24,366 nt of DNA from a virus. Position numbers and translations under genes: made by a program. This document shows, one piece after another, positions 2,980 through 6,765 of this stretch (position 1 is its first letter; each line of letters opens with the position of its first letter). The DNA is taken from IMG/VR virus record IMGVR_UViG_3300028840_002120, positions 1 to 24,366 of that record; one strand, written 5' to 3'. A model generated the notes under the pieces. That model was given only the letters and a program-made list of their open reading frames with translations. It was not told where the DNA came from and searched no databases.

Positions 2980-3009
2980 ATTATACCAGTTAACCCCCTT
3001 ACAAGTCAA
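2980..3009 (-). promoter_or_regulatory. leftward sigma70-type promoter
   Basis: Minus strand TTGACT (complement of 3004-3009), 18 bases, then TATAAT (complement of 2980-2985). It points at the 35-aa membrane peptide 33 bases downstream. Its -35 lies 26 bases from the -35 of a rightward promoter-like sequence, so the pair is divergent. Confidence 0.6.
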
Positions 3010-3035
3010 ATAGGGGTTAGGTAGATATAGACCTA

Positions 3036-3065
3036 TTGACATATAGGGTTAGTTAGTAGTATAGG
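3036..3065 (+). promoter_or_regulatory. possible rightward sigma70-type promoter, divergent to the previous one
   Basis: TTGACA at 3036-3041, 18 bases, then TATAGG at 3060-3065. The -35 is perfect and the -10 matches four of six. Between the two divergent -35 boxes is an interrupted palindrome TAGGT-N8-ACCTA (about 3018-3035), placed like an operator. No clear gene follows for 800 bases, so the transcript may be non-coding or a long leader. Confidence 0.4.
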
Positions 3066-3094
3066 GGTTTAGTAGTAGGGGTATGAGTACCGGT

Positions 3095-3574
3095 TGCAAG
3101 TACCATGCCAACTCTCTATATATTCATGAATAAATATTACTACTACCCTATATATACCCTACCATATATGTATATTAACCCCTATATATGGCTATATGAT
3201 CTATTAGCCCGCCCTTGCAAGACCTATGCCACTATATACGTAACTATAGTTACCAATATACGCCTATATACTAATAAATTAGTGTATTTATAACTATTGA
3301 TTATTATATGATTATATGTATATACTCCACCAATAGGGTAAGCAAGATATATACCAGCATATAGGCATAGTTATTGAATGGTAATGCAGGCTTTGTGCCA
3401 AATAGCGCGGGCCTAGAAGCGTAACTATAGTTACCATAAGCAATAACTATACCAATTGAAGTAAGTATAATGGTACGTATATTGCAATAAATTAAAATGA
3501 CTATATATGTATATAGGTGTATAGGGGTGTATAGTAATGTAAGGGGTACGGTTCGTAATGCAAAGACCATGCCA
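3095..3574 (+). repeat. four TGCA-N7-TGCCA boxes
   Basis: The 16-base pattern TGCA-N7-TGCCA occurs at 3095-3110, 3216-3231, 3385-3400 and 3559-3574, all in the same orientation. Spacer bases are partly conserved (A/G after TGCA; CCA or CTA before TGCCA in three copies). Spacing between copies is 121, 169 and 174 bases. The repeats lie in otherwise AT-rich, gene-free DNA, as expected for binding sites of a replication, partition or regulatory protein. Confidence 0.6.
3240..3434. repeat. two identical 14-bp perfect palindromes GTAACTATAGTTAC
   Basis: GTAACTATAGTTAC is at 3240-3253 and 3421-3434, each within the longer shared CGTAACTATAGTTACCA. Each palindrome follows a TGCA-N7-TGCCA box (by 8 and 20 bases), so box plus palindrome forms a composite unit present twice. 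A dimeric DNA-binding protein is the natural reading. Confidence 0.65.
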
Positions 3575-3797
3575 GGGTCCCATCCGGTAACTCACACACA
3601 AACCTAAAATAACCATTGGAATAATTGTACCTTATACCCAAAAAGTAAAATAGAAATAGGGTACCCATATTGAATTCTGAGAGTAGTACTAAAAACCTGG
3701 GGGAACTATTATTACCAACCAGTAACTCTTCTCATGAAGAAATTCCCAATGATTTCAATACTAGGTTAAAACTAGAGTGCTTTACGAATACTTATTA

Positions 3798-3847: not shown

Positions 3848-4153
3848 ATGAGAGACTTAATAGATGAAGCTGGAGCTAGAATAGTAAGGGGCAAAGTGCG
3901 ACGTGTAGAGATAAACTATTTTTGGACTCCTGTCTATGAAATAGAATTAGATAACCCCTGGGATAAGATCAAATTCAAGTGGGGTAAAGGCCATATGGTT
4001 GGTACCCTATCTAAGTATATAGGTGAAGACTACTGGTGGGTGTTATTTACAGATGGGTGTTTTGACAGGTGTGTAGAGATGAGAGGCTACATGTTCTCCC
4101 ACGCCAACCCAGTTACCTACATGAGACGGAGCAAAGAATCTCGTGAGCAATAA
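3848..4153 (+). CDS. small protein of the YM-tail paralogue array, 101 aa
   Basis: First gene of an operon of eleven overlapping small genes. ATG at 3848 follows AGAGGGGG. The product has tryptophan- and tyrosine-rich beta-strand stretches (IKFKWGKGHMVGTLSKYIGE, then DYWWVLFTDGC) and ends NPVTYMRRSKESREQ. The VTYMRR tail corresponds to the I-x-Y-M-K/R tail of the next genes, so I group it as a divergent member lacking the K-x-G-D N-terminus. Function unknown. It overlaps the next gene by 11 bases. Confidence 0.7.
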   Translation: MRDLIDEAGARIVRGKVRRVEINYFWTPVYEIELDNPWDKIKFKWGKGHMVGTLSKYIGEDYWWVLFTDGCFDRCVEMRGYMFSHANPVTYMRRSKESREQ

Positions 4154-4370
4154 TAAGTATAAGTTAGGTGATAGGGTTAGATTTAATAGTCAGAGGCTTA
4201 AAGGAGTAGGGGTAGTGGTGGCTATTTCTCAATTTGCTCCAGATTGTTATGTGGTTCAAGGCCCGCCCCGAGCGGGTGGTCGCGGCCTCCGGATAGGCTT
4301 ACACGAGAAAGAAATGAAATATGACACTATAGACTATATGAAATATATGAGAAGGAAAAGGGAAGAATAG
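4143..4370 (+). CDS. YM-tail array protein, 75 aa
   Basis: GTG start at 4143 inside the end of the previous gene. It begins with the basic segment KYKLGDRVRF, the K-x-G-D-x-V signature seen at the start of most genes in this array and of many SH3/KOW-like barrels, and ends YDTIDYMKYMRRKREE. The middle alternates short beta strands (GVGVVVAIS, CYVVQG). I infer a small beta barrel with a short helical, basic C-terminal tag. Partner and function unknown. Its stop (TAG, 4368-4370) shares a base with the next GTG. Confidence 0.75.
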   Translation: MSNNKYKLGDRVRFNSQRLKGVGVVVAISQFAPDCYVVQGPPRAGGRGLRIGLHEKEMKYDTIDYMKYMRRKREE

Positions 4371-4618
4371 TGGGTTGGAAACAAAAGTTACACCTATTTC
4401 AGTTGGGAGATAGAGTAAACTTTGATTACCTGGGCAGGAAAGTAACGGGGAAGATTACAGGTATAAGGACCACTAAATCTCCCTATTCTGGATTCCCTCT
4501 ATATCAGGAGTATACGGTAGAATTCTCGGATGGCCGCCGCATGAATATGTGCTGCTGCAAAGAAAGTGACCTTATGCTGGCAGATACTATAGAGTATATG
4601 AAAAGGAAGAAACAGTGA
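4370..4618 (+). CDS. YM-tail array protein, 82 aa
   Basis: The GTG start at 4370 uses the last base of the preceding stop. After a short lead the K-x-G-D-type motif appears as FQLGDRVNFDYLG, then strands KVTGKITGIR and YTVEFSDGRR, a CCC cluster, and the tail ADTIEYMKRKKQ. The Y-T-V-E-F-S-D-G-R pattern is typical of small SH3-like barrels that end a strand in a G-R turn. It is a paralogue of its neighbours; function unknown. Confidence 0.75.
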   Translation: MGWKQKLHLFQLGDRVNFDYLGRKVTGKITGIRTTKSPYSGFPLYQEYTVEFSDGRRMNMCCCKESDLMLADTIEYMKRKKQ

Positions 4619-4836
4619 AATATAAGGTAGGAGACAAGATTAAGCTGTCTACGGGATATGAGTTTAGCCCGCAGGTGTATATCGGAACAGTAGTAAGAGA
4701 GCCTACCAAGAAGAATAATCTCTATTTGATAGAATTCAAGGCAGATGAGAGAGGTACACAAAGAATATACCTAACCGCTGATCAAATTAGGCCTTTAAAT
4801 GTAATGACTTATATGAAGCGAGGTAAAAAGAAGTGA
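4615..4836 (+). CDS. YM-tail array protein, 73 aa
   Basis: GTG at 4615 overlaps the preceding TGA by four bases (GTGA). The sequence opens KYKVGDKIKLS, has the strands YIGTVVREP and LYLIEFKAD, and closes LNVMTYMKRGKKK. Layout and length match the preceding gene, supporting tandem duplication followed by strong divergence. No catalytic motif or cysteines are seen; probably a binding protein, by inference only. Confidence 0.75.
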   Translation: MKYKVGDKIKLSTGYEFSPQVYIGTVVREPTKKNNLYLIEFKADERGTQRIYLTADQIRPLNVMTYMKRGKKK

Positions 4837-5045
4837 AGTTTAAAGAGGGAGATAGTGCTTTATATACGGACGAGGAGGGTACAGTCCATAGAGTAAAGAT
4901 CCTAGAAGCTTACCCCGTAACACGATGCTATATAATAACCCCTGTGATCAACCAGGATACAGGACATACAACGGTGGCTGTAGCAGAATACTACTTAAAA
5001 ATAGACTTGTTGAACTATATGGTTGATAGGAAGAGTAAAAAATGA
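4833..5045 (+). CDS. YM-tail array protein, 70 aa (divergent tail)
   Basis: GTG at 4833 overlaps the preceding TGA (GTGA). It opens KFKEGDSALYTDEEGTVHRV, again K-x-G-D followed by strands, and ends LLNYMVDRKSKK. The Y-M pair and terminal lysines are kept, but the basic residue after Met is replaced by Val-Asp. It overlaps the next gene's ATG by four bases (ATGA). Confidence 0.7.
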   Translation: MKFKEGDSALYTDEEGTVHRVKILEAYPVTRCYIITPVINQDTGHTTVAVAEYYLKIDLLNYMVDRKSKK

Positions 5046-5314
5046 CAAAATATGCGTTAATTCCACTTTTAGCCCTAGTGGTTTTAGGATGTTTTCTACT
5101 TAAGGCTACCAGCGAGTTAGACAAGTCAATAGATTCCTTTTCTAAATCTATAGATAACCTAGAGTGTGTCTATGAAGTTACTGAAGGCTGGCCAGAGAAA
5201 TTTCCTATGGAAGAGTTCAAGGAACGGATGCCAGATGCTCCCTGGACCAAGGAGAGTATAAACTCCTTCGTGGACTTATTGGTAGAAGATTGTATGAAAG
5301 CTAAAGGCTATTAG
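5042..5314 (+). CDS. membrane-anchored or lipoprotein-like small protein, 90 aa
   Basis: ATG at 5042 overlaps the previous stop. The N-terminus (residues 4-21) is hydrophobic: LIPLLALVVLGCFLLKA. V-L-G-C17 could serve as a lipobox, or the segment may be an uncleaved membrane anchor. The rest is soluble and acidic, with a helical repeat SIDSFSKSIDNL and two further cysteines. It is the one clearly envelope-directed product in this operon and lacks the Y-M tail. Function unknown; superinfection exclusion is a possibility by position and type only. Confidence 0.65.
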   Translation: MTKYALIPLLALVVLGCFLLKATSELDKSIDSFSKSIDNLECVYEVTEGWPEKFPMEEFKERMPDAPWTKESINSFVDLLVEDCMKAKGY

Positions 5315-5388
5315 ATATACCCCTGAGATGCACCAGATTGCTCTGTATCGCGTTTTAATTGCTCAGGCATACCCAGATAGAGGCTAAA

Positions 5389-5625
5389 ATGATTAAGAAA
5401 GAGACTAAGATAACAAAAGTAGAACGAATACATACAGTTAGTGTTATTTGCGATGTATGTAAGAAAGAGATCACTCCTGACGATACATATGAATGGCAGG
5501 AGATCCATTTTGTAGCCTTTACCGGAGGCTTTGGGTCAGTTTTTGGAGATGATACTACTGTTCAATGTGAGATTTGCCAACACTGTCTGAAGAAGCTTAT
5601 AGGACAATATTGCCGCTATGATTAG
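5389..5625 (+). CDS. two-CxxC putative zinc-binding protein, 78 aa
   Basis: I take ATG at 5389, preceded by AGAGGC; an earlier in-frame TTG at 5359 has no ribosome-binding site. The protein has ICDVCKKEI near residues 24-32 and CEICQHCLKKL near its end, two CxxC pairs that can bind one zinc. Between them is an aromatic, glycine-rich stretch (FVAFTGGFGSVFG). Small proteins of this type are common in phage early regions; no specific function is known to me. The 74 bases before it hold no gene. Confidence 0.65.
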   Translation: MIKKETKITKVERIHTVSVICDVCKKEITPDDTYEWQEIHFVAFTGGFGSVFGDDTTVQCEICQHCLKKLIGQYCRYD

Positions 5626-5896
5626 ATATTATAATGGAGATTGCGTGAAAGTACAGGTATTCTTTCCGGGCAATCACAAGGGACCCAATACTAAGTGGGT
5701 TTCTGGTACAGTTATATCATGTGAGTACGGGAATCCAGAAGGCGTACATATGCCTGATAGCTATACAGTACTTTTAAAGCCCAGGAACGAGGAACTGTTT
5801 TCCTTCGGCTTTGGTGAAGTAGCTCCCATCTTAAGCGTAGGACCTAAATACATTAAGAGAGACACTTTGGGGTATATGAGGAAGAATAAAAAATGA
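5618..5896 (+). CDS. YM-tail array protein, 92 aa
   Basis: ATG at 5618 overlaps the preceding gene by 8 bases. It opens MIRYYNGDCVKVQVFF, the array's N-terminal motif with N-G-D in place of x-G-D, has the strands WVSGTVISCEYG and SYTVLLKPR, and ends KRDTLGYMRKNKK. It is the longest repeat-type member after the first gene. Its separation from the first block by two unrelated genes shows that the array is interspersed, not a simple tandem. Confidence 0.75.
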   Translation: MIRYYNGDCVKVQVFFPGNHKGPNTKWVSGTVISCEYGNPEGVHMPDSYTVLLKPRNEELFSFGFGEVAPILSVGPKYIKRDTLGYMRKNKK

Positions 5897-6198
5897 GCAA
5901 AGACGATATCTTAGATGATCTTAAGGGTACTTGTGAGAAGTCTAGGCACCCCTATCTTAAAAAACCCCGATTCTATCGGGTTGTAAATAGGGGCAAAAAG
6001 CGGTGCCCCAACAGTAATAGCGGGCTTCATACTCCTGATAAATTGGAATGGGGAGTAGATTTAAGAGACGACAACCACATGGTAGACTTATGGTGCGGAG
6101 ATTGCGGTAAGAAATTCAGGAAGATACCCTTCAGAGACTTACCGGAAGAATTTCAGGACCATATAAACAAGACGCTGGAGGAGAAAATTAATGTTTAA
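5893..6198 (+). CDS. putative zinc-binding small protein, 101 aa
   Basis: ATG at 5893 overlaps the preceding TGA by four bases. Visible features are a basic N-terminal half with a cysteine (KRCPNSNSG), the sequence HMVDLWCGDCGKKFR with a CxxC knuckle, and a charged helical C-terminus. One CxxC plus an earlier Cys or His could form a zinc site. It has no Y-M tail. It resembles small phage zinc-ribbon proteins in general, without a match I can name. Confidence 0.65.
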   Translation: MSKDDILDDLKGTCEKSRHPYLKKPRFYRVVNRGKKRCPNSNSGLHTPDKLEWGVDLRDDNHMVDLWCGDCGKKFRKIPFRDLPEEFQDHINKTLEEKINV

Positions 6199-6442
6199 AT
6201 TTGGGGATTTTGTGAGAGTTACCTCCGGCCATCCGGAGTATAACTTCTGGTCTGAGGCTATAGGTATGGTATTAGATTCCTCTTGGTCTCCTCAGTCGGG
6301 TAACCAAGAGTATAGAGTAAGAATGACACATCCTACACTTACAGGCATACATTATGATGCTACATTTGAAGGATGGCATTTAAGTTCGGTAGATACTATA
6401 GACTATATGAAGTACAGGAAAAGGAAAGAGTGGCAGGTATGA
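6191..6442 (+). CDS. YM-tail array protein, 83 aa
   Basis: ATG at 6191 overlaps the preceding gene by 8 bases, with GGAGGAG just upstream. It opens MFKFGDFVRVTSGHPEYNFW, has strands (AIGMVLDSSW, EYRVRMTH), and ends VDTIDYMKYRKRKEWQV. The tail is nearly identical to that of the gene at 4143 (DTIDYMKY), although the rest has diverged strongly. That contrast suggests the tail is under selection. Confidence 0.75.
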   Translation: MFKFGDFVRVTSGHPEYNFWSEAIGMVLDSSWSPQSGNQEYRVRMTHPTLTGIHYDATFEGWHLSSVDTIDYMKYRKRKEWQV

Positions 6443-6765
6443 ATAAGGCTGAGAGATTACTCAAGAAAAAGAAAAAATTTGAAGATAAAGCAGATCGTAT
6501 CCATGGACTTATAGAGTATAGAAAGTGGCAAAATGAGGATTCTTTAAAATTCTCTGGAAGCCCAAACCAAGATAAACCTCTAGTACACATGGCTGCTAAA
6601 AGAGATTGGAAAAATGGGTCCCTGATACCTGCCGTTATGCTAGAAAACAACGTGATAGTCTCAGGAGTTGAGGAAATTCAACAATTTAGGGACTGGTTGA
6701 CCGAAATGCTATCTGATTCCCTGACTTCAGAAATGCGTGAAATTAAAGAGAAAAACAATAAGTAA
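6439..6765 (+). CDS. hypothetical charged helical protein, 108 aa
   Basis: I choose ATG at 6439, which overlaps the preceding TGA (ATGA); an in-frame TTG at 6373 would overlap the previous gene by 70 bases without a ribosome-binding site. The N-terminus is a lysine-rich helix (ERLLKKKKKFEDKADRI), the middle contains a small strand region (SLIPAVMLENNVIVSG), and the C-terminus is an acidic helix. It is the last gene before the next promoter. Function unknown. Confidence 0.65.
   Translation: MNKAERLLKKKKKFEDKADRIHGLIEYRKWQNEDSLKFSGSPNQDKPLVHMAAKRDWKNGSLIPAVMLENNVIVSGVEEIQQFRDWLTEMLSDSLTSEMREIKEKNNK

Follow-up and report, generated by a model that had tools for sequence, protein, structure and literature searches.

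The tailed array and its genomic context

The window analysed here is the whole of a 24,366-nucleotide (24-kb) virus record from a tailed phage (IMG/VR record IMGVR_UViG_3300028840_002120), and it encodes a terminase (9141), a portal-like protein (12570) and a major head protein (15765). Searches with ten window genes against Pfam identified no prohead protease, and the head genes are divergent. The array of interest occupies 3848-6442 on the + strand. It opens with a chimeric tailed gene (3848..4153; tail NPVTYMRRSKESREQ, core NPVTYMRRSK), followed by genes for tailed barrel proteins at 4143..4370 (tail DTIDYMKYMRRK), 4370..4618 (tail DTIEYMKRKKQ) and 4615..4836 (tail NVMTYMKRGKKK, core NVMTYMKRGKK), and by a tailed barrel with a divergent tail at 4833..5045 (DLLNYMVDRKSKK, core DLLNYMVDRK) that is missing at the sibling locus. 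An untailed membrane or lipoprotein-like protein (5042..5314) lies among the tailed genes, as does an untailed Cys-rich, zinc-binding-like protein (5389..5625) that matches PHROG 5435 (E 2e-12), annotated as of unknown function. A tailed barrel at 5618..5896 ends in DTLGYMRKNKK, and its sibling orthologue in DVIEHMRKNKK. The array closes with an untailed Cys-rich protein (5893..6198) and a tailed barrel (6191..6442; tail DTIDYMKYRKRKEWQV, core DTIDYMKYRKRK) that is missing at the sibling locus. An earlier note on this DNA had described seven shared C-terminal tails, an x-G-D start in six of the genes, and two cysteine proteins and a membrane protein interspersed among them. All seven tails were found in ORFs at these coordinates, x-x-G-D is seen in six of the seven tailed ORFs, and the two Cys-rich ORFs and the membrane or lipoprotein-like ORF are present. 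Searches with the tailed window proteins against Pfam and PHROGs assigned them to no family.

The array has several neighbours. The untailed protein encoded at 6439-6765 ends in SLTSEMREIKEKNNK, which is possibly a decayed tail and scored below threshold. Just upstream of the array, 3000-3670 is a low-complexity stretch of TATA/CTATATA-rich words without a convincing gene, and it has an alignable counterpart upstream of the sibling array. A 243-aa protein encoded at 782-1513 matches PHROGs 1392 and 1617 (unknown function), and the protein of the adjoining gene at 106-789 matches a PHROG annotated as anti-restriction.

Searches with the large terminase (TerL) found two contigs that are near-identical to the window (L003 and L006) and a second sub-lineage (L004, L005 and L007) with a TerL that is 90% identical and contigs of up to 107 kb; the same query against host genomes gave no match. 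The second sub-lineage keeps the array at its syntenic locus, with other membership. The sibling genomes also encode a DNA polymerase, a primase-helicase, UvsX, a ribonucleotide reductase and an RNA ligase.

The tail recurs across the sibling genomes

The tail follows the consensus [DNS]-[TVPA]-[IVL]-x-[YTNH]-M-[KR]-x-x-[KR] near the C-terminus. Position by position, it has D/N/S at position 1, T/V/I/P/A at 2, I/V/L at 3, Y/T/N/H at 5, M at 6 and K/R at 7 and 10, with positions 4 and 8-9 free. Of 36 sites, 33 have Met at position 6, and almost all tails carry Lys/Arg at positions 7 and 10. The core is followed by 0 to 12 variable residues, and the proteins end in K, Q, E, N, A, T or V.

Between 30 and 36 of the 197 called genes on the sibling contigs are tailed: a refined matrix matches 36, about 30 of them clearly, where internal positions or shuffled ends predict fewer than one. 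Because the matrix picks sites by amino acid, its weak members are uncertain, and a few of the 36 are weak in that they lack the Met or have more than 12 residues past the core. In a held-out test, the matrix was trained on the seven window tails alone and the syntenic locus was left out. Here, 25 of 161 non-syntenic sibling genes were scored as tailed against 0.83 expected from internal positions and, at a stricter cut, 19 against 0, while the controls gave 1/161 at N-termini and 0/208 ORFs of a control phage region. In the two sub-lineages, 39/388 and 12/201 ORFs pass, compared with 1/3051 among unrelated viral contigs totalling 887 kb. Among the matches listed, 5 of 4460 ORFs of unrelated viral contigs are tailed, never two per contig, in a set that includes contigs picked for YMKxxKK-stop. 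These counts confirm that the recurrence of the tail is real and far beyond chance. Because the tail is known from one lineage with two sub-lineages, part of this recurrence reflects common ancestry of the gene ends.

Tailed genes are small, at 54-153 aa, and lie mostly outside the structural gene block (26/124 outside vs 1/54 inside, P=5e-4), the lone match inside the block being a weak one without the Met. The earlier note had proposed a search of related phages for the same ending, and the sibling genomes indeed hold many more tailed small proteins. Its description of the tail as a feature of one gene family at one locus does not stand, however, as the 30-36 tailed proteins are found across the sibling genome and include non-barrel proteins. 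A tail widespread among viruses was also considered and rejected: in degenerate DNA scans of IMG/VR, the tail was confined to its own lineage among the matches listed. A search of INPHARED with a 20-aa consensus tail, a query so short that it is insensitive, gave no match, and the open-access literature searched contains no description of such a tail.

Tailed bodies are mostly, and not exclusively, small barrels

The 40 tailed bodies fall into 29 phmmer clusters. A barrel profile matches 23 of the 40, a count that is circular in part since some of these bodies helped to build the profile, and does not match 17, which include Cys-rich domains and a 153-aa domain. In profile searches, the barrel resembles the Tudor domain (E 0.007) and, also weakly, L19, L24 and Spt5, while no barrel body scored above the curated cut-offs of Pfam, the sequences being too divergent. 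An AlphaFold model of the 4615 protein, built with an alignment (mean pLDDT 74), has an all-beta body with four assigned strands of at least three residues, consistent with a five-stranded small barrel. The barrel strands lie within residues 1-61 with pLDDT around 80, and the tail, with pLDDT below 50, is disordered in the model and outside the barrel. Foldseek pairs this model with PWWP/Tudor domains at a probability of 0.9-1.0, with E-values of only 0.03-0.2, and with many small viral barrels, also at weak E-values. The earlier note had assumed variable barrels and proposed a test for a common SH3/KOW-like fold. The bodies are indeed mostly Tudor/SH3-like, whereas at least ten tailed bodies are not barrels, and the evidence from predicted structures for the shared fold comes from the 4615 model, the one aligned model. 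Because the Tudor/SH3/KOW-like barrel is a common fold, the x-G-D start alone is not new; we know of no Tudor/SH3/KOW-like family with such a tail. Genes with a barrel head tend to carry the tail as well (odds ratio 10).

Our data support that the tail is portable between bodies. Other phages encode homologues of the 153-aa tailed protein (L022:14519-14980), one in Aeromonas phage phiA047 and the rest at 16 IMG/VR loci that include near-duplicates, and none of the 17 is tailed. This family spans diverse phages and has the conserved motifs GEVGFGR and AYHKH, and in the 153-aa protein the tail is added just past the end of the common domain. The single-sequence structure prediction for this protein, the only one for a non-barrel body, has a pLDDT of 38, and a PADLOC scan gave no convincing match. 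Residues 90-149, beside the tail, match MukE (JetB) weakly (E 0.003). A second, Cys-rich tailed body has homologues without a tail in Brevundimonas phages. Conversely, the body of the 4143 protein is identical to that of its sibling L005:5921 at 57 of 60 positions (95%), whereas the tails agree at 4 of 15 and both fit the motif; judging from the two sequences, this pair is best read as a tail swap. Thus, the separation of the tail from the varying body that the earlier note had assumed is borne out by its position outside the barrel in the 4615 model and by its portability across bodies.

The encoded peptide is under selection

Among 30 tail copies, with close orthologues excluded, the conserved tail columns contain 551 same-codon pairs against 526 +/- 23 expected from genome codon usage (P=0.15); the Met column lies outside this test because Met has a single codon. 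Because synonymous codons are random in the conserved columns, selection is on the peptide and not on the DNA. The strong selection on the tail that had been proposed earlier can therefore be placed at the peptide level, and the concern that the tails are an accident of a shared lysine-rich 3' end was tested and did not hold. Whether or not a gene is tailed, Shine-Dalgarno (SD) sequences at overlapping gene ends arise via codon choice. The SD energy at coupled ends is no better in tailed than in untailed genes (-5.7 vs -6.1), nor are the residues of the tail more prone to encode an SD sequence (recoded null -3.78 vs -3.74). Together, the synonymous-codon and SD-energy tests lead us to reject an SD sequence or a Lys-rich 3' end as the origin of the tail. 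A regularity at the DNA level is nevertheless present: of 34 coupled cases, 18 have 16-17 nt between the tail Met codon and the start codon of the gene that follows. This spacing spans two reading-frame relations, and the distance to the gene's own stop codon varies. The spacing may reflect inheritance of an ancestral gene end.

Probable reshuffling of neighbouring paralogues

The first gene of the array illustrates how such genes may form. Its start corresponds to L004:5166, its body to L004:5450 and its tail end to L004:5647. The chimera is in-frame, with joins at 8-11 bp of shared sequence: the first join is at GGGATAAGAT, coding for D-K-I of the shared start, and the second at ATGAGACG, coding for M-R-R of the tail. 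The 3848 gene is an in-frame deletion chimera that joins two complete paralogues and the tail end of a third, and this origin explains its lack of x-G-D. As the sibling copies are complete, the window probably has the derived state. More generally, the arrays would be reshuffled as neighbouring paralogues undergo deletions, fuse or exchange tails, with every shuffled gene retaining a working tail.

Discussion

Based on these data, we suggest a model in which the tail would be a short, N-capped helical linear motif that projects from folded bodies. Helices are usually N-capped by D/N/S followed by T/P/A, and this pattern at the tail start points to a short helix. In the model, the lineage would have equipped at least 30 small accessory proteins with the tail. 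The Tudor/SH3-like barrels would have multiplied via tandem duplication, and the other bodies would be unrelated small domains. The variable body would do a different job in each protein, and the tail would most likely dock all tailed proteins onto one partner, either of the phage or of the host. Recurrence across the genome, selection at the amino-acid level and portability are shown above, as is, in the one 4615 structure model, the flexibility of the tail. Because a flexible, portable and peptide-selected tail on many bodies looks like a docking motif, we lean towards a portable C-terminal docking motif that is carried by rapidly shuffled accessory proteins and recognises one common partner. 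Compared with the earlier interpretation overall, selection, a tail external to the barrel and portability hold, whereas docking and the single partner, like the tail helix, are what we infer. The 16-17 nt Met spacing counts against docking, which does not predict such a regularity in the DNA. More tentatively, the phage may run an addressing scheme, in which one C-terminal zip code directs about 30 interchangeable accessory proteins to one partner, or to one site in the infected cell or virion, and new genes would become useful once tailed by a neighbour.

Several alternatives to a docking motif make use of the same features. The tail could be non-specifically sticky, i.e. a basic, amphipathic C-terminal stretch with affinity for nucleic acid, ribosomes or membrane but for no one specific partner. 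The near-invariant basic residues fit this idea, as do the many Tudor/KOW-like bodies, this fold being frequent in nucleic-acid or ribosome binding; it is unlikely, however, since the Met and the D/N/S-T/V/P/A-I/V/L pattern exceed what basicity needs. The tail could also be a product of common descent only, as the terminal helix of a single family of barrels that is kept for folding or oligomerization. The co-occurrence of head and tail and the 23 profile matches agree with such an origin. By contrast, the tail is present on non-barrel bodies, a homologue of a tailed body elsewhere lacks it, and in the 4615 model it lies outside the barrel, at a pLDDT below 50, so that we regard descent as quite an unlikely sole source; a tail that is part of the barrel is likewise disfavoured by the non-barrel bodies and the 4615 model.

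An explanation in terms of gene junctions would make the tail a by-product of a conserved SD sequence and an overlapping next start, serving translation coupling and copied by recombination. Overlap with the next gene is found in 34 of 42 tailed compared with 72 of 143 untailed genes, the Met codon has a fixed distance to the next start in about half of the coupled cases, and recombination junctions lie in shared motifs, the tail among them. In the lambda nin region, chains of small overlapping, interlinked genes have a conserved junction geometry, and the array is similar in both respects; however, unlike in lambda, the junction nucleotides here are not conserved past the encoded peptide. In addition, the conserved columns lack synonymous conservation, the SD energies and SD-proneness of tailed ends are unexceptional, and tails are kept where no close next gene is called (e.g. 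L021:15909 and L005:6377). As a sole cause, gene junctions are therefore disfavoured, and we consider this account improbable. Finally, the tail might be a degron that times the turnover of early proteins via a host or phage protease, as could be expected of a C-terminal element on many small non-structural proteins. C-degrons require a fixed free terminus, whereas the extreme C-terminus here is not conserved given the variable residues past the core, which makes a degron very improbable.

Returning to the docking motif, the nearest precedent, which it resembles in logic, is the capsid targeting sequence (CTS) of T4, also a short terminal peptide on diverse, otherwise unrelated small phage proteins. 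The CTS is N-terminal, while the tail described here is C-terminal, is carried by about 30 proteins and is known from sequence alone. The internal proteins of T-even phages are described as diverse defence proteins in which only the CTS is conserved (PMC3012670). In encapsulins and microcompartments, short terminal encapsulation or cargo-loading peptides on different cargo proteins dock to one shell (PMC11157265). As short terminal peptides on different proteins these are similar to the tail; they differ in sequence, and the tail is found in a phage genome with no shell known. Jumbo phages likewise sort many of their own proteins, in their case into the phage nucleus and, unlike here, apparently without a terminal signal (PMC11087766).

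Most accessory genes of phages are small, evolve fast and lack annotation. One short tail, repeated at the C-terminus of at least 30 small proteins of otherwise unrelated sequence, resembles a common docking tag or address, and a tag shared by about one-sixth of the genes of one phage would place these genes in one functional class without any single function being known. These sequences record how a phage retains its tag while recombination between neighbours swaps bodies and tails, and one tail peptide could lead to the common partner of all tailed proteins.
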